Below, piece after piece: positions 8,891-62,786 of a DNA stretch of 64,000 nucleotides. Both the position numbers and the translations under genes were made by a program. The DNA lies in contig NC_090784.1 of assembly GCF_040054535.1 (NCBI RefSeq), positions 16,957,001 through 17,021,000 on the forward strand, written 5' to 3'. The stretch is from Antennarius striatus. Taxonomy: Eukaryota > Chordata > Actinopteri > Lophiiformes > Antennariidae. The notes under the pieces were generated by a model. It was not told the origin of the DNA. It searched no databases and saw only the letters and a list, made by a program, of their open reading frames with translations. Positions within the stretch are counted from its first letter, which is position 1. Every line of letters begins with the position of its first letter.

Positions 8891-9717
8891 GATTTTCGTT
8901 AGTAATCCAAACCAAACTCGCAGTCTTTTTTTAGATTGATTGGAGTTGTGAAACGGGAAGAATAACAAGGAGAGGTAATCACAGAAGCACACCGAAGAGC
9001 ATCAAATATTGTGTTCTTTGACATTAGATAGCCAGTCAGTTTACAGCGTTTGTGTACAATAGTCACTTAGCACAGCTAGTTAGTTAGCCCTTGTTGCTAA
9101 TACTTAAAACTAACGCAGCACTTTGTCTCGGTGTTACTACTGAAGTAAAGGCCTTTTTAATGGTCTACATGTCGACAGTATTTACACTCGGGGTTTTTTC
9201 CTGTACTTCTTTCAATGTTAATGTTTGTTATTTATGCAAGAGAGAAAGGTTAGGTAACTAGCCAAGTCCATTGTAGTTGACCACAACTGGCTAGCTGCTG
9301 TTTGACTTGTCTTGAGCTTCCCTGCATGTTCTTCTGTAGGCATCGATCACTGATTATTAGGTTGACGTCTTGTCCGCTAGAGAACATGCCAGAACTACTC
9401 CTGCTTGCTACGATTATTGAATTTAGTTAACTGTGAAAAACACTGGCAATTAAATGTGTGTATGTGCGGGTGAGAGCTGTGCTTTAGTAGCATGAGCAGA
9501 AACTAACGGTCTGGAATTTATAGTTGTTAGAAAACAATCCTAGTCTTAAGACATCTCACTCTAGCGTTTATACTGACTTGATAAGTTTGGGTTTAATGTT
9601 TGATCATTTGGCTGTCCATATTTTGTCGTAATTTTATTATTAATTTGTTGTTTATTTTCCTTGTGTAAACAAAAACCATTCTTTTTAATGATGGTTTCTG
9701 TTCCTTTAGTGGCAAAC

Positions 9718-9832
9718 ATGGAGGGAGGTGAAGACCAAAACACTGGGACCACCAATGGAAATCCTCAGACAAGTGGGAACTCTCGTGCACCCCAGATAGC
9801 TCACATGTCTCTGTATGAGAGACAAGCTGTAC

Positions 9833-9902
<70 letters not shown>

Positions 9903-12900
9903 ACGTGCGTATACGTGCAATGGCATTTGATTTAATGAATGATAAACAATTACTTTGGGATGTTTCTTGAAATTATATGTGTGTGTGTGGGGGGGGTGTT
10001 TATAAAGGCTCTCCAAGCTCTGCAAAGACAACCAAATGCAGCTCAGTACTTCCAACAACTCATGCTGCAGCAGCAGATCAATAGTGCCCAACTCCACAAT
10101 TTGGCGGCAGTGCAACAGGTAACTAGAATTATGGTGTGAAGGTCCAGTCCGTACAAAAGCAAGAGCACTACAAGCCAGCCATTTCATTTCTGTCCTTAAA
10201 CCAGGCCACGCTCGCAGCGAGTCGACAGTCCAATACGACAAGTAACAGCATGTCCCAGGCACCTACCACTGTAAGTTTATGTGTTTACTGTTATTTGAAT
10301 TGCAGTATAAAAGTAGTTGTTGTTAAATACTGAGGTAGGTTTGATTTAAAACACACTTTCAAAAATTATCTTAGGTCAACATAAGCACCACGTCCACAGG
10401 AGGTACCATGACCAATCCCCGTCCCCATGGCCCAGCCACATCTGCAACAACAACAGGTCTCAATCAGTCAGTGCTGTTGGGTGGAAACTCTGCTGGACAG
10501 GGACAGATGTATCTCAGGGTGAGTTAAAAATGATTGCGCTTACATTCATTCATTCATCTTTTAAAACCGCTTCATCCGTTGTCGCCGAGTGCCGACTGGG
10601 GGTGTGAGGCAGGGGATACTCCGGGTGCGATGCCAGTGTACCGCAGAGCCACACATATACACAGACAAACACGCACGCACGCACACACATCTACAGTCAA
10701 TTTGGAAGTGCATATTAATGCATATTACTTTTTTGTGTGTCAGCAAACCTGATAATGTAATAACTCACACCTTGTTCTGTTTTTGAAAGTCATGGATTTG
10801 ATTTTTTTTAAACATAATTTTTTGTGTTGGTAGCTTGTGCTACTAAGAACTAGAATCTTACAATCTGTAAGAACAGATTGTGTTTTTTCCACAAAAGTTG
10901 AACCTCTAACTTGTTCAGCCTAGCAGTGTGTGTCAATATTGTAGAGAAGAAAATTTCTATATAGAACCAGTGGTACTTGATTTTGTTATTTATACATTTA
11001 TTTGGTACAAATAATTTTTACCCATTTGATTTGCTCCATACGTAGGTCAACCGCTCTCTCAGAGCTCCCCTTGCCTCACAACTCATCTTCATGCCTGGTG
11101 GTACGGCAACAGCAACTGTAGCAACAGTTGCCCAGACACAGCCCCAGCAACAGCAGCAACAACAACAACAGCAACAACAACAACAGCAGCAGCAGCAGCA
11201 TGAAGTTGCCCCTGCTGGTGCCCAGTCTGACCATGATCAGGTCTGACGACTATTTCCTGACTGTAACGTGAAAGCTAAGATAAAACCGGCACAATATTCA
11301 ACATTATTAAAAAATCCCCTAAACCTCTTCTCTTAATGTTAAAGGTGCAGAATCTGGCCTTACACTGTGCTCCCAGAGCAGCTGCAGTCAAGTCTGAGCT
11401 CCCAGAAAGGAAAGATGTCGCCACCTTTCCTGCTGGTCAACAGCAGCAGCAAACATTTGCCCAGACACCTCAGCAGCAACCACAACGACAACAACAAATG
11501 ACCAAACAGAACTTTCCTCAGCAGTCAACTGCCAACACCATGACTGCAAAGGCTGGAAACCAAGCTTCCATGACTGTCACTCCTGCAGCTTCTATCGCTC
11601 CATCCTCCACCTCCTCTCCAGCACTTCCTCTTTCACAGCTTCTCCTGTCCTCATCCACTGCCCCAGTGATCCTGGTCCCCACCTCAAATGTTCCTACCAC
11701 CACCCAGGGCTACTCCATTGGCTCAGTGACTCCAAAAGCCAATGTGAACACCCAGACTCTGGTAGTGCAGCCCCTGCAACAGGCCAGCACCAATACCGAC
11801 AAAGGTCCTGTGCCGATACAGCCCAAGACTGCTCAAGGACAACGCTTACCTGTGCAGATGCCCCCTCGACACCCACCTCCGATTCTTCCAGCACCACCCA
11901 GCAACAGCCAGGCAAGCACCATGGGACACAACACACCCCATATCCCTGTGCAGCTTGTGGGAACCAGGCAGGGCTTGGCAGGAAATGCACAGGCTGTGGC
12001 CCTGGCACAGGTACGAAGCAGCACAGGCCAGGAAAGTACAGCTGGTGGGAATGTTAACACAGTCTCCGGCAATGGTGCCATGGTAAGAGCAACCATTTAA
12101 AATATTTACAGTACACAGTGAAGCTGTCATTTTGGTGTAGGTGTAAGTATAAGTATGGTACAAGGACTGCTTACAGTTTTCCTGCCCCCCCCCCTCCCCT
12201 CCACATAACATTAGATAAAGCCCACCATTGGCTCTCTGAAGAGAAAATCAGACAGTGACGCTCCAAATGAGATGTCAACAGAGGCTTCAGACTCTGCACC
12301 AATGAAAGATTCTGCTCCTCCCTTGTCTCCTGCACCTACAAAGGATTTGGGTATGTTAAGTTCCAGTTTCTAAATCAAACATGTATTATTGTCAGTATTG
12401 TGTCTACAGTAAGTCTTCAAAATCATGCTGCTTTTTTTTCCCCCTTTTGATGTCCATAAGCTCCTTCTGCAGCAGCTGCTTTCCCGTCTCCACCTACCCT
12501 ATCCTTGCCTTTGCCCTTGTCAAGAATCGGGCTTGGGGACAAAGACAGACCGCCTGTCCCTCACGCGGTGGTCAAACCTCAAGTCCTCACCCACCTGATA
12601 GAGGGCTTTGTAATCCAAGAAGGAGCTGAACCCTTCCCGGTAAGTGTCCTCTGCTGACAACAATGGCTTCATATCAAACATGCCCGATCCCACATCAAAC
12701 CGTTCCTGACTGATTTGCTTGTATCATAAACTCATGTGATAGGTTGCTGGACTTCTCAAAGACAGAGATTTTGCCTTGGTTGGCCGCTCAGAGAATGGAC
12801 CTGCATGTCAGTGATTGGATAAGTCTTCTTTTTTAATGATACTTCTAAAATATGTGCGTGGTCAATATTTCCTGAAAGCATGAAGTAGTTTTATTTTTTC

Positions 12901-49137: not shown

Positions 49138-52100
49138 CACGCACACATGCAAACACATACACACATTTTAGCCTACTGGCTAACGCACACACAAATTTGG
49201 CATTCTGAAGAACCCACACAATGACACACAGATATGAATATGCAGCGCTGTGGCTCCCCGTCACGAGGGATAGCGGAATGTGCTATTATTTTTTTAATTA
49301 ACTCTCAATGTCACACTGCCCTTCAACCTCAGCATCTATTCGTAGCACTCACTGTGACTGGAGCTCCCCTCTCCCCCTCTCTCTCTGCTGGTTTCTCTCT
49401 GTTTTTGTTGTTTGCTGCTCTTCATATTTTGGGGGGTTGAGTGGGTTTTACAGTTTCTCTTTTACAGGCGGCTCATAAAGTGCAGACCCACGAATGCATT
49501 CAAATCTCCTGAAAGCCCACCAGTATAATTTAACATGTGTTTTCTCTGCTAAACCAAGGGAGGAATAGTTTACATTTTTCATTTTCTTCATCTAACTAGG
49601 ATGCAAAATGCATAACATTAGAGGATTAAGCTCCTACAGTTGAGCTCAAGAGTGAAATAATAACTACTTTTATGTGTCTGTAGAGAGAGTTCAGGAGAAT
49701 AGCCACAGCAGTAAGTAAGGAAAACGTTCCTTGGAATAAATTAAGGAAGAAGAATAGACAGAGGGTGATTTGTTGGAAGGTCAGTCTACAGTTGAAGAGT
49801 TAACAATGTCCATAAGTGTGTGAAAGTTACAGGGATGCCATGTTTGGCCCTGTGTTCCATGGGATCAGTGTACAAGGCTACACGGTGACACAAAGGTAAA
49901 CACAAGGTTGAGAGATGGAAGCTGTGAAGTCACCTGGCATTAATAAATCACAACTTCTAGTGCCTCTCTCACGCTGTCAGAAATTTGACACAGTTACAAT
50001 TCATTGTTTTTCACTGTCACAATGAAAGCAAACAATCCATTATTATTATTATTATAATTTCCAAGAGATAAAAATGACATCATATGGTGTGTTTTGTCCA
50101 ACCGATTATCAAAAATCCACCAAAAGACAACATGAAAAGGAGTGCGGTGGTCTGCATCCATTTTTCTGCTAGATATATCTTGTCTTACACAGATGCATGA
50201 AATCCATTTGAATGACTCTAAATCTGCATCAACTTCATGTGGCTATATCACTGGCTTCTTGTTCTACTGGCCTCCTCCAAATGTATATTTGAATTATCTA
50301 GATCCAGATAACACTCTAGAGCAGTGGTTCTTAACCTTGTTGGAGGTACCGAACCCTTCCGGTTTCATATGGTCACTCACCGAACCCTTCTTTAGTAAAA
50401 ACTTCTTTTTTTTTCAAATTGAAGACATAAGTATATGTTTTATTGGTGTATTTAATGGATTGTGCTTTAATGTCACCTTTTTCAAAGAACAAAACCAAGA
50501 CCTACCTGCAAATCAGTGTGACTTCTGCTGTGGTTATTGAGAGACCAAGTGCTATTCTAATGTCATTTTCACAGCAGTCTGTTTCTTTTGTTTTCCATGC
50601 AGCTTAAGGAAATGTTCCTTTATTTTTGCCAGTGCGAGACTAGACTTGACATTGCAAATCATGCAGAACGCTGACTCCCGTCACGTTCCGTTATACAGTA
50701 CATGTAAATTCACGTTGCACATATTCGTCCGACCACTTTCTTTTTATGCTCAACATAGTTACTATGAATTAAAATGTTAAGAAAGCAATCAGATGACGTA
50801 CCATCATGACAGGCATAAATCGACTACTGAGTACTCAAAATCCCATGTAGCACAGGTAGGCTAATCGATGTAGCGTCACATGATCACCTGCAGCCAGTGA
50901 TGAGTAAGGGGGGCGTGTCATCACGAATTGACACGATGTGTCAAACGTACACAGTGATTTGTGTATGTTCAACAAAAACACCCGACACGATGTGTCAGGT
51001 GTTTGTCTTGACCCCCGTCTCTGCCGAACCCCTGAGACCGACTCACCGAACCCCTAGGGTTCGATCGAACCCAGGTTCAGAACCACTGCTCTAGAGAGAC
51101 TTGCTGTTAAGTCTTATTAGTTTTATTTTTATATATTGGCCAAAAGTTGTTGTTTTTTTAATTGATGGAAGAGCAACTCTGAAAAATATATTGATAAAAT
51201 CATTTTGATGATGGGAATAATTCGGACATACATGTACAACTCAAGCAAAGACATAAACACAATCAGTGTTGTTAATTAGCACGTAAATGTCCAGATGATT
51301 AATTTGGTCCAAGAATTAGTGAAATAAACATACATATAAGTGATGTTATTGATGTTATGCTAAATTTTGGGAGTAGCTAGGCTATTTCACAAAATACATT
51401 TGTAAATTGATGTCATTTTATTCCATACTGATTATGACTTTTATGAAACAACCCAATATAAAAGATTAGCTAGCTTATTAGCTTACTGAAAGCTAGAGAC
51501 AGTGTCACTGAGGAAAAGACAGGAGACAGAGCTGGAGGTAGCAGACATGAGGATGCTGAGGTTCTCTCTGGGAGTGACCAGGAAGGATAGGATCAGGAAT
51601 GAGTACATCAGAGGGACAGCACATGTTAGAGGTTTTGGAGATAAAGTCAGAGGGGCCAGACTGAGATGGTTTGGACATGTCCAGAGGAGAGATAGTGAAT
51701 ATATTGGTAGAAGGATGCTGCGTTTTGAACTGCCAGGCAGGAGGTCTAGAGGAAGACCGAAGAGGTGGTTTATGGATGTAGTGAAAGAGGACAGGAAGGT
51801 AGTTGGTGTGAGAGAAGAGGATGCAGAAGACAGGGTTAGATGGAGGCAACTGATTCGCTGTGGCAATCCCTGAAGGGAAAAGCCGAAAGGAGCAAAAGAA
51901 GATTAGCTTATTGAAAGCAGCTTCACATGGTAGTGTCATTAAATGAGACAAACAAAATGAAACTATTCCTAGACAGGAGATGCTGTTTTTACACAGTTTA
52001 ACAGGAGTACAGTATACTATGTAAGAAGAACAGCAACCTTCTGTTTGTCTTGTATTTATTGTGGGACGTGAGATGAGATGTACAATGTGTGAGGTAATGA

Positions 52101-56400: not shown

Positions 56401-59400
56401 AATTCTTCCAAGAATGCTGTTCCTCTGCATTGGGCTATAGCATCATCACCATTCCAACACCAAGTAATTGTCATTCATTTTATGTCTCTGTCTCAGATTG
56501 TTTAGCTCGTGCGCGGCGATACATCGTGACCAAGATGGGGGAGGACTGGATATTCCTGGTTCTTCTGGGGCTGACTATGGCTTTGGTCAGCTGGAGTATG
56601 GACTATACCAGCGCCAAGAGCCTCCAAGGTAACACCGGTCAATGTCAAAGTCAAGGGGATCATTACTGCGCCCAGGATTCTGATCGTTCTGTAATTGTTC
56701 TGCAGATTCCACTCTGTGCTCCATTATGTCATGCCTCTTCCCTCTTTGTATTCCTTGCTGTTTCCCATTTTTCAGCATATAAGTGGATACACGGGGAGCT
56801 TAAGGGCAATGTGGCATTTCAGTACCTCGCCTGGGTTACCTATCCCATGATCCTTGTTATGTTCGCCTCGCTCTTCTGCCACCTCGTTTCCCCACAGGCA
56901 ATCGGTAAGCACTCCATCACCTGTCAGCTTCCGTTATTCTCTCTCAGCATCTGTTCTTTTCTTCTTCTACCCCATGATGCCTGTGTTAGCAGTATAGCAT
57001 TTTAACCAGTCTTTCTTTATGTAATCTCATCATACTCGGGTCCTCCGTCTTTGTCTTTTATATTTTTTTTTCTACAGGTTCTGGTATTCCTGAGCTGAAA
57101 ACTATCCTGAGGGGAGTGGTGCTGAAGGAATATCTGACCCTCAAAGCTTTTATAGCTAAGGTCATTGGTCTGACTGCAGGCCTGGGCAGTGGGATGCCAG
57201 TGGGCAAAGAAGTAATTAGCCTCCCCTTTCCATCTCTTTATCCATTATTTATCTGGTATCATTAAAATCTACCTCCTTGTTTTCTTCCTTCTCCACTCGA
57301 TCTACTCTATTTTCAACCTCAGAAGATAATAAATCATCTTCTGTTACGCTTTCCCTTCTCTCATGGGATTGAAGCAAATTATTCAAGTCCTCAGGAAAAG
57401 AGCACATTCATTTTCCTGATTAGCAGTGCAGCTGTCACATCCAGCAATTATACACTGATTTATCTATTCTGTTACAACATGTCCTAGTTTGGAATGCCTG
57501 TTCTAAAGGCAGTAGTCAGTGTTTGTGTAGATAACATTACATGTCACTCATCAGTGTCATTGTTCTCCTCCTGTCACCTTCAGGGTCCATTTGTTCACAT
57601 TGCCAGCATCTGTGCTGCAGTGCTGAGTCGATTCATGTCCATCTTTTCTGGAGTCTATGAGGTAAGCCGAGGCCTTGACCAGAACGGACCCACAACCTTC
57701 ACGTCCTCACAGTCAATGCACTAAAAATAGTATAATATCAGTAAAGCAGAAATAGCATGGAATATACATGAATGTATTTTAATATAGTATTTTCATCTTA
57801 ACTCTTTGTCTTCTTGTCTATGCTCTAATTCCAGAGTTCCCAAAGGACTTAAATTTAATTATTTAAATTTTCAATTAAAAAAAAAAATTCAATACTTTTT
57901 TTTTTACCATGCTAGTAACAAGACTCCAGGAATTACAATCTATAATAATCTTTTGTGAAGGTGCTAACTGACACAAAAAAAAATTCAGACCACATGCTTA
58001 TTAGTGTTTTACATCTTTAATATAGTTCACTATGACATTTGCAAGACAGATAATATTTTCAGCCTCAGCTGAACTTTGCATTTACAATTATTATTAATGA
58101 ATAAATACTGCATGCTGAGAAACTAAGTAAGATGTTGACATGATAAAGATGATACCTGCGGAACACCATCATGTTAGCATTGCCAATCAAGGATCATTTT
58201 AGGTTTTTATTTCAAAATAAATCCTCTAAAAATGTCTAAAAGCATTAGTTTTGACTTGCTAACTACACTTGCTAGAGATAGTATGTGTCCACCTTAGTAC
58301 AAACTCTCTATTGATCATACTGTATTTTCCGCACTATAAGGCGCACCTAAAAGCCTTTAATTTTCTCAAAAACCGGCAGTGTGCCTTATAATCCAGTGCA
58401 CCTGAGATATGAAAATTGTTTTAAAATGGGCCATTCATTGAAAGTGTGCCTTATAGTCCAGTGCGCCTTATAGTGCAGAAAATACTGTAATACCTCGAAA
58501 AGATTCAGGCAGCCCCTTTTTTCTGTGACAATTTTTTCTTGACTTCTTTATTTGACAATGTTTAAATTACTAAGGGTCATGCTGCAATGTCTAAGTGTTT
58601 AAAGAGTCCTTTAAATTAACTTAAAGCTCATTTCATTTGATGGTAGTGGGAACTCTGTAATTGTTGCCTCCCATCTGACTCTCTCCCCCTCTCAGGTCAC
58701 ACTCATCCCTCCCTGTTTTCTTTGTGTTTTTGTTTTGGCTTGACCCGTCACACCGCATCTGTGTGTGTGTGTCTCACTGTATTAATAGTGTGATGGTAAT
58801 GTCTGGCATGTGTATTAACAGTGACCTCCCCTATCCCCGACTCCCTCCCTACTCTTGGTATTCTCACCCATCCCTGCTCCTCCCTCCTTCTCCCTACCTC
58901 CTCATTTGTGTCCACCTTTGACCCTTAACACCAGATTGACACCCATAACCAGGACCTGTTGGTGTGTGCGTGTGCCGTGGGAGTGGCCACCTGTTTCGCT
59001 GCCCCAGTGGGAGGCAAGTCCCGTCCTGCGCTTTTCCATAATCAGCTACGGGACAGTCATGTGGAGGTTAAATTTGACCTCAGACCAATGCCCTCTATTA
59101 CCAGGGATGAAGAAAATGGAATATATAAAGATACAGATTAACCCCTCAGTACTAGTAAGCCTGTAATTGAACGCTCGGATTTAAAGGCATGGTTGAGTGT
59201 TTTGATAAATAGTTATTCACTTTCCCACTGAGAATGAGACAATATGATCAATACATCTCTAATGTCTATACTCAAAATATCTAGATAGAAGCAGCAGGCA
59301 TTGAGCTTCGCTTAGTCTATCTAAGTTAGGTTAGCTACAGAGGGCATGTTGAATATATAGAGGGTATGCACATGATGTCACGCTAGGCGAAGGGCTGTGA

Positions 59401-62400
59401 GATTATACCCTTAATGAGTGGCAGCATTGTTATTCAACTGAAAAGAGAACGCATAAAGAATTCTAAATGGAAAAGAGAAGTTTTATACCATCATTTTATG
59501 GACCAGGTCATAAATTTCTCTTGAAGGTACAGGATATAGAAATGAGGGACACAGTGTGTCCTCGCGCATCCACTGTGCTGCTACATATGTCTGTAAATAA
59601 TGTAATGAAATAATATTTTGACAATCCTGTCCACATATAGTTGAAACTGCCATTGGTGTCCTGGCCACTTTAATTTTTCTAATTGTGTGTGGGCTGTGTG
59701 TAGCTCCAATCCGATGGTCTGATTGATGAGTAAAGGCAATAATCAGAGAGAGACAGATGTTAGCAACAGAACTGATCCCAGGTATTGGCTTTGTATTCTG
59801 TTTACAGAATTGAGAGCTTCAAACTTCTCATCTGACTATCCATAATGGCATAAAAGCATTTTCTAAAACAACAGATGACTCCATTGAATCTTACCTGGCA
59901 TCGGTGTGCTGCATCAGCTGTGATGGATTCCATGAGAATGAGTGTGTCTCACAACTCCCCAGGAACTGTGCATATAAGCCTTGAATTATTAAGTTCTTTT
60001 TGCTGTCAGGCTTTTTTCTGGAGTAGTAAGCTTCAAAGTTTTTTACCAAGTCACAGAAAAAAAATGTTTATTCTTCTAAAACAGCAATGCAACAAAGTCG
60101 AACTAGATCATAAGAGACTAAACTGTGATTTTGAGAAGTTACATAGAACCTCACAATTTAGTGTCGTAAATAATCAATGGAAGTGTTTTGTGTGTGTTTC
60201 CTTAATTTTAGATGTCAATTTAGCTGCAGGGATTTGCCTCTAAGGACGATATGACCACTATGTTTGTTTCCTGATTGCTTAATTGCTCTCTCCAAGTCTG
60301 ATTACTCTTATTGGCATGTGCATCCTCTTCTTTATCATCTCTAGATTTGACCCCCTCCCCCTCTCCTTACCCCCCCCCCACACACACACACACACACACA
60401 CACTTCAGTGAGCATTATTTATTCACTTTATTCCATTTTGCTCCCTTTCTGTCAATTCTCTCCCCATGGTTCCCCATTACATCCTCCCCACCTTGATCTT
60501 TTATTCTCTCTTCCGTCCCTCTTTTCTGTCTGTCTATGCTTTTTCTCATCACCTTATTTTTCCTTTGTCATGTCACACCTCTCCGTCCCGCATTGTCTCC
60601 CTCATCCCTTTATTCCCCTCTTGTTTTTTCCTCTCCCTCTGTTTTCTGTGTCAGTAGAACCCTTATGGTTACACAGATATTCTGACTGTTGGCTGTGCCG
60701 TTGGGGTGGGATGCTGTTTCGGCACACCACTAGGAGGTACCCTGCAACTCTCACACTACTCAGTCACACACTGCTGCATGCATCCATCTGCACTGGATCA
60801 CACTATACTTTGACTGTACTTGTACTTTTTAAGTGCTGTTTGAAAGATGTTATTAGTACAGAATTTTCAAAGCATCCAATTCTGAAACTATTCTTGCTTG
60901 TTCATTCTATATGATTATTATTTTTTTAGCAATTAAGAATTTTGCTTTTCTAAGTATGTGTTTAGCATGTTGACCTTGTAAGCCAATACTAATATAATTA
61001 TTTGAATTTTTTAAACCTGACAATCAAGATGTTTTTAATTGAAAATATTCCAACAAAGATTTATCTTATCTTAGCTTCTTTTTTTTTTACACAAATCCCA
61101 GAAAATCTCATTTTGTTGTTCTTGAAAAGCTTGAGTTTTTTCAACAGAGACACACAACTATGAACTAAATAACTTAAAATTTTCCCTGATGATATGTTAT
61201 TATTTTTCTGGCTTCCAGTGATCTTAAAATTGCAGCAGTGTTATATTGATCTGACTTGATCTGATTGACCTCCTTCCCTACATGGAGCATGCATGTGGAG
61301 CTCCCCGACCTCGAGCTGTTTCCTGACATTTGAAGTCATTTTCTTCTGCTTTCTGTTAGCTGCTCACTGCAGCTGGGTGCTTTTTAAATCAGTGCATCCC
61401 CTATTATATCAGTGCACTGTTTATACATAATGTTGAGATGCAATAATGGTGCAACAAACCCATTATGAACAAGCCATTTCAAAAGAGACAGTCAACTTTG
61501 CAATATTTTGATACCGGGTAAAAGTTGTACAAAACCACATTAATGTTCATCACAATGAAATGTCAGAGAGTTACCTTTTGTATCTGCACCGGAATCAAAT
61601 ATGTCAAGCGGTATAAAGCCGGCTCTCCCTGTGGGCCCCTCGTCTCAGTGCTTTGAGATCTGTGAAAGTGAGTGAACCAGCTCTGAAAAATGGAAAAAAA
61701 ATCAATAACAGAGGAAAACACCTGTCATTTCAGAGATTTTGGATTTGTACACCTCTTCTTCAACTCCTCATGACCCTGAGCATTTTCAGGCTTTCAGAAC
61801 ATCTAGAAAGAAAAAAAAATCACATTAAGAATTTAAACACAAGTCAAGAATTTACGTTGAAGAATTTAAACACAAGTGCAACTTGTGAAAAACAGTTTTC
61901 AACACATGTTTCCTCAGCAAACTTAGGAAACGTAGCATCAACTGAACACCCATCTCCCATGAATAAGTAACAAACTCTAATTGGTGCTGAGAAGAGAATA
62001 AACAGACCGAACAGCCCTACTGCTGCACCTTTTCATGTCCAACTAAACAGCAGATGGTTGAAGATATTCCCCTTTAATGAGCAGACAGTTTATTTATATG
62101 AGGATGAATAAAGTCTTTACTCTTGGTGATGATATCAGGTTTGTTTTCTTGGGCAAACAACGAGTAAACAGCTAGAATGAGATTACCATTCAGACAAAAT
62201 GAGAAATGTCTTTCCACAGTATGAAAAAACATTTCCGTACTGGGAAAGTGTCTTTTCATATTTCATCGGATAAACTTTGCATGTTAATGTCTGAATCAAT
62301 CAATGCCGAAGAATCTACCCAAAGTTTGAGAAATATTTTATTCAATTCTTGTCTTCTATTCAGCTGTTTTTATGTGGTTTTCTTTGTGTTATTGTGTGTA

Positions 62401-62786
62401 ATTTCATTTCCTGCAGTTCTCCTGTTGTTTATAATTACACCCTTAGCTTCAAGTGTTTTTGCACTCATTCTGCTCATTTAACTCCTCTCTCCCTCTCTCT
62501 TCTATATTTCTTTATGTCTCTCACCCCGCTCTCCTCCTCCTCTCTTATTTCTCCCACCTCCTTCTTTTTCCTCTCCACTTTAAACCCTCCTTTCCCTCTG
62601 TCATCCCTCCTCTTCTCCCTCTCTATCTCTGTCTCTCACCACCAGGGGTGTTGTTCAGTATTGAGGTCACGTCTACCTACTTTGCTGTGAGGAATTACTG
62701 GCGGGGATATTTCGCTGCCACATTCAGTGCCTTCATATTCAGGGTGCTTTCTGTGTGGAACAAGGATGCTGGTGAGAAGCAGATGC

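Follow-up and report, generated by a model that had tools for sequence, protein, structure and literature searches.

The closest described counterpart of the element analyzed here is exon 7a of mammalian CLCN1/Clcn1, which lies between exons 6 and 7 and is described in the papers searched only as a frameshifting exon spliced beside exon 7. Its erroneous inclusion causes the muscle stiffness of myotonic dystrophy. Mouse transcripts carrying both 7a and 7 are described as frameshifted and decayed (PMC12458930 and PMC10082032). Isoforms in which 7a is the only addition, or is accompanied by intron 2, intron 6 or exon 8a, are candidates for nonsense-mediated decay (PMC12458930), and the exon is repressed by MBNL in mouse, with an inclusion of 73.7% in muscle without Mbnl1 versus 6.65% in wild type (PMC12458930). 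A second group of known systems is formed by the tandem duplicated, mutually exclusive exons of sodium and calcium channel genes, where adjacent homologous exons have equal length and phase and each alone gives a full protein. Substitution events between tandem duplicated exons are enriched in ion channels (PMC9741552), and the name CLCN1 occurs 0 times in the main texts of that paper and of PMC5740500. Here we describe a pair of neighboring 79-nucleotide (nt) exons, A and B, in the clcn1 gene of the frogfish Antennarius striatus, located in a 64,000-nt stretch of NC_090784.1 (positions 16,957,001 to 17,021,000, hereafter the window, with positions counted from its first letter). The pair resembles the channel exons just mentioned, which differ from it in that the fish pair is known here from DNA alone. 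Our preferred reading, to which we assign a probability of roughly 0.55, is that A and B descend from an ancient tandem duplication and that A most likely serves as a working alternative to B in fish.

Part of a vertebrate clcn1 gene lies in the window, and its CLC domain match extends beyond it without stops (C9:17023439-17023576). The protein encoded by exon 6, exon B and exon 8 aligned to human CLC-1 residues 234-326 with 182 bits, whereas its match to CLC-2 scored 155 bits and that to CLC-K 79. All exons are on the forward strand. Exon 6 (57584-57661, 78 nt) aligns to human residues 234-258, with the query starting at Pro; an earlier, sequence-only reading of this DNA had correctly placed its end at 57661 in phase 0, and its full span is corrected here. 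It is followed in gene order by exon A (58935-59013), exon B (60658-60736) and exon 8 (62646-62771, 126 nt, encoding GVLFSIE), with A sitting between exon 6 and B, the canonical exon 7. Both A and B are preceded by AG acceptors, comprise 79 nt (26 codons plus one base) and hand the leftover base to exon 8. The frame is open into GVLFSIE when exon 6 is joined to exon 8 through either A or B alone, and the 6-A-B-8 and 6-8 joins are frameshifted and reach a stop within exon 8. The sequence-only reading had claimed two separate 79-nt exons in one phase between exons 6 and 8, and had concluded, since using both or skipping both shifts the frame, that exactly one must be used; the former was confirmed at the positions given, and the latter is an argument from frame and not evidence of splicing. 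Because the three introns measure 1273, 1644 and 1909 nt, joining of A to B is not sterically barred. A and B agree at 42 of 79 nt, and their peptides at 11 of 26 residues; like tandem duplicated exons, they are homologous neighbors equal in length and phase.

For comparison with mammals, a stretch of mouse Clcn1 containing exon 7a is printed in PMC5964235, where it was used as RNA and where a figure legend labels the minigene exon 'exon 6B'. We identified it as exon 7a because it holds the exact target of the exon 7a antisense oligonucleotide, whose published sequence switches letter case where intron meets exon (PMC10082032), and because its terminal bases match the guide sequence flanking exon 7a in PMC12458930. 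The length of 79 nt given for mammalian exon 7a in the sequence-only reading is borne out by the reverse transcription PCR (RT-PCR) products of 345 bp without and 424 bp with the exon (PMC10082032); the mouse assays target the exon 7a-exon 7 and exon 6-exon 7 junctions (PMC10082032). Cut at this length, the mouse exon translates without a stop as TVPGQLDLLVPACAVGVGCYFAAPDG and is followed by GCAAGT. Open across all 26 codons and with both splice sites, the mouse exon gives no support to the 'decayed remnant' that it had been taken for. It does have Asp (APDGG) at position 283, where all other CLC-1, CLC-2 and CLC-K segments compared have a hydrophobic residue, and a recent relaxation of constraint in mouse 7a is therefore possible. 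No human or other mammalian exon 7a sequence turned up in the open papers searched with the mouse fragments.

Exon A and mouse exon 7a have the same location, length and phase, and both are followed by the letters GCAAGT (59014-59019 in the fish). They are identical at 46 of 79 nt and, once translated, at 15 of 26 residues, while B and mouse 7a agree at 44 of 79 nt and 13 of 26 residues. When the 9,812 windows of 78 nt on both strands of positions 57662-62645 were scored against mouse 7a with BLOSUM62, A reached 58 and B reached 64, with the next best window at 17 (mean -34, standard deviation 10.8), so the likeness of both exons to 7a exceeds chance. Over the last 20 residues the scores were 67 for A and 65 for B. 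Such scores indicate that similarity alone does not separate orthology from a fresh copy. Both A and 7a have AC and FAAP where fish and human exon 7 have GC and FGTP, and DLLV is also common to A and 7a. Judged from these sequence features and from the trees described below, the homology of exon A to mammalian exon 7a is well supported, and the alignment on which the earlier proposal of this homology hinged came out positive.

The near-equal closeness of mouse 7a to fish A and B over 26 residues is what might be seen if exon 7 had been copied twice, once in fish and once in mammals, and A and 7a had converged afterwards. Trees were compared on seven sequences under LG+G4 in the main run and repeated under JTT+G4, Poisson and LG, and with a 20-residue set to which CLC-K was added; human exon 7 was used in place of mouse exon 7 throughout. 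In the approximately unbiased (AU) test, A as a late copy of fish B was rejected in all five runs (p = 0.015, 0.0060, 0.0010, 5.6e-6 and 0.0016), as was a tree with both copies independent (p=0.020 under LG+G4 and at most 0.011 in the repeats). For 7a as a late copy of mammalian exon 7, the AU values were 0.031, 0.032, 0.018, 0.062 and 0.013, a rejection in four of five runs with plain LG (p=0.062) as the exception, and the Shimodaira-Hasegawa (SH) test rejected this tree in one run only, leaving it standing in the other four. Taken over the three trees and five runs, the AU test rejected late copies in 14 of 15 cases. The independent-copy trees also cost 42-43 parsimony steps compared with 37, that is, 5 to 6 extra steps on 26 residues, and convergence would further have to account for AC, FAAP, DLLV and the GC donor being common to A and 7a. 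The donor is independent support, since the trees do not use it. Independent copying is thus very improbable, and because late copies are mostly rejected, the duplication of A and B probably predates the split between fish and tetrapods, as far as sequence comparison can date it. Four early-duplication arrangements were equally good on the 26 residues, so the pair may be older or younger than the CLC-1/CLC-2 split, and A and 7a may or may not be strict sisters.

The pattern of substitution between A and mouse 7a is of the coding type. The two exons are identical at 20, 17 and 8 of 26 first, second and third codon positions, respectively (Fisher one-sided p=0.00076). Of the 15 residues that they have in common, 9 are encoded by different synonymous codons. 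This pair was one of ten compared in the codon-position test, six of which fell below 0.05. Exon A retains an open frame, both splice sites, its length and the motif residues CAVGV, CFAAP and GG. We also simulated unconstrained change starting from A, with 5000 runs per rate, and counted the runs that ended with an open frame and at least 15 identical residues. The share was 12% at 0.4 substitutions per site, 28 of 5000 (0.56%) at 0.6 and 0 of 5000 at 1.0. Because identity fades in this way when change is unconstrained, constraint must have acted in both lineages during much of the period after they parted.

These results bear on two further explanations. The first is that A is an ancient conserved poison exon, spliced together with B to lower ClC-1 output, with its peptide never used. 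The premature stop that follows in exon 8 when A and B are joined would fit such a role, as would the decayed 7a-containing transcripts of mouse, the high inclusion of 7a in muscle without Mbnl1 and the weak GC donor, which suits a mostly skipped exon. To act as a poison, however, an exon requires splice sites and a length not divisible by three but no conserved peptide, and the differences between A and 7a cluster at third positions, with the synonymously encoded residues noted above. Nor need a poison exon restore the frame when it replaces B, which the length of A does exactly. We regard this explanation as fairly unlikely. The second, that A is a fossil, a once-coding duplicate now unused or only accidentally used in this fish, would draw on its GC donor and on the lower pyrimidine content of its acceptor tract (14 of 20 positions, compared with 17 of 20 for B). 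Long neutral decay, however, would have erased the identity with mouse at 15 of 26 residues, and frame, splice sites, motif residues and length are all intact. The GC donor is likewise found in mouse, where the exon is spliced, and so is not a sign of decay. A fossil exon is accordingly improbable.

The splice sites themselves suggest how A might be used. Its donor, GAG|GCAAGT, is of the GC type and was absent from the sequence-only reading, while B has a GT donor (GAG|GTACCC). GC donors are found in about 1 per cent of vertebrate introns. Given this donor and the 14/20 pyrimidine tract, A should be the weaker, regulated exon. The acceptor of B is a tandem CAG/TAG (60652-60657, cagtag, in the context gtCAGTAG|AACCC), and use of the first AG would put an in-frame TAG directly after SGVYE. 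Thus either some splicing of the canonical exon is unproductive in this fish or the second AG is strongly preferred. Counts of YGCY (MBNL) and CELF motifs near A and B showed no excess over a first-order resampling shuffle, in what is a low-power test, with little excess at the mouse target either.

Exon A also differs at a position of known importance for channel gating. In the alignment, exon residue k corresponds to human CLC-1 residue 258+k, so residue 19 is position 277, which is Cys in B and mouse 7a and Thr in exon A. At positions 277 and 283 taken together, mouse 7a has Cys and Asp and fish A has Thr and Val. Residue C277 of ClC-1 is equivalent to C212 of CLC-0 (PMC7757909), and C277S is reported to lock the slow (common) gate open (PMC5362633, PMC4410605). 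C277Y, by contrast, lowers conductance and underlies myotonia. In the CLC-K family this position is Thr in the solved chain 11ah_A (174-194, AVGVATVFAAP) and Ser in the fish clcnk gene (L014 8550-8628). Thr at 277 therefore occurs naturally in a CLC channel, and exon A carries the CLC-K-like motif AVGVAT. By analogy with the CLC-0 C212S and ClC-1 C277S mutants, whose slow gate is affected through the same position, we infer that a channel containing the A segment would show weakened slow gating and zinc sensitivity. This prediction turns on a single position, although 15 of the 26 residues in the segment are changed. The parallel is limited in that the mutants are laboratory point mutants, while A alters those 15 residues together and brings in a Thr for which the papers searched describe no assay at this position.

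Exon A as an alternative channel segment is therefore plausible from its sequence, and the events envisaged by our preferred reading are as follows. A tandem duplication in clcn1 before the split of ray-finned fish and tetrapods would have given rise to B, the canonical exon 7, and to A, the counterpart of 7a. Splicing of 6-A-8 would yield a full-length ClC-1 with segment 259-285 (human numbering) replaced, while 6-A-B-8 or 6-8 splicing would cause a frameshift and presumably RNA decay, so that productive use of the two exons would be mutually exclusive. Thr at the Cys277 position together with AVGVAT would produce a channel with weakened slow gating, and A, with its weak donor of the GC type and its poorer acceptor tract, would be the regulated choice, made in a minority of transcripts. 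When mammals fail to exclude 7a beside exon 7, it acts as a poison exon in myotonic dystrophy.

Several observations weigh against this reading. The data consist of 26 codons with one fish and one mouse sequence, mouse 7a scores slightly nearer to B than to A over the full 26 residues, and the SH test is as permissive toward a late mammalian copy as described above. Mouse 7a also retains Cys277, so Thr is not common to 7a-type exons. The codon-position test was not significant for A and B (p=0.29), for A and the clcn2 copies (0.27 and 0.18) or for 7a and clcn2b (0.13). The section on long reads from mouse quadriceps in PMC12458930 describes no 7a-for-7 isoform; one legend there names 'Clcn1 exon7 skipping' as a positive control. 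Finally, clcn1 splicing was unchanged in zebrafish mbnl mutants, according to the portion of PMC8246264 that treats them. This last result fits a fossil exon as well and, together with the motif counts, leaves MBNL control in fish without support.

Searches of the genome placed the exon pair in the context of the other CLC genes. Matches were obtained at 3 places with the exon B protein, at 4 with exon A and at 6 with exon 8, and those beyond the window comprised two clcn2-like genes (C6 and C18), a clcnk-like gene (C2), two distant CLC genes (C23 and C24) and a chance hit (C11, E=1.55). A second clcn1 gene with which to compare exon A was not found among the best-scoring candidates of the protein search. 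Each clcn2 gene has a single 79-nt exon of this type, with no second copy in the flanking introns, which were covered on both sides; none was seen near clcnk either, in a scan that may not span the whole upstream intron and with an exon start that is approximate. In scans of these loci (L011-L014), the next best scores were 27, 32, 29 and 29, while the two clcn2 exons themselves scored 105-108 and the clcnk exon 61. Within the reach of the sequence searches, the pair is thus peculiar to clcn1 in this genome. Exon A (at 58965-59013) and the C6 clcn2 exon (at L011 8643-8691) have in common, within these stretches, an exact run of 16 nt, in register. Their synonymous divergence (dS by the NG86 method of Nei and Gojobori) is oddly low at 0.48, compared with 1.76 between the two clcn2 exons. 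GC content at third codon positions is 0.65 in exon A and 0.73 in the C6 exon, and the closeness of the two may come from gene conversion or from this high value in both. A fresh copy of clcn2 is disfavored as the source of A because its GC donor and position agree with those of mouse 7a. Two unrelated features were also observed. Repeat-like reading frames, probably a retroelement tail, occur in the window at 51505-51880 and in L014 at 9421-9891 (RPKRRFMDVVKE in L014), and a glutamine-rich open frame of 273 residues (11279-12100, forward strand) is possibly a large exon of another gene.

In the open papers searched, 7a is nowhere described as a duplicate of exon 7; key older papers lay outside the search, and a prior description is possible. 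The match of exon A to mouse exon 7a suggests that this disease exon is an old spare with coding content, as opposed to random junk. A further proposal, which we consider doubtful, is that in mammals too 7a and exon 7 form a mutually exclusive pair, one more than 400 million years old. Mammals might then produce, in certain tissues or at certain stages, a so far concealed form of ClC-1 whose helix G/H segment is exchanged, and the myotonia seen in myotonic dystrophy would reflect failed mutual exclusion. Size-based RT-PCR would be blind to the 6-7a-8 form, because exons 7 and 7a are both 79 nt and the product has the same size and frame as 6-7-8. For the best known exon of myotonic dystrophy, the comparison would provide an origin, odd GC donor included, in a coding exon older than the fish-tetrapod split. 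It predicts a fish ClC-1 isoform with altered slow gating and, in mammals, an equal-sized, in-frame swap of 7a for 7, which would bear on antisense designs that remove exon 7a.

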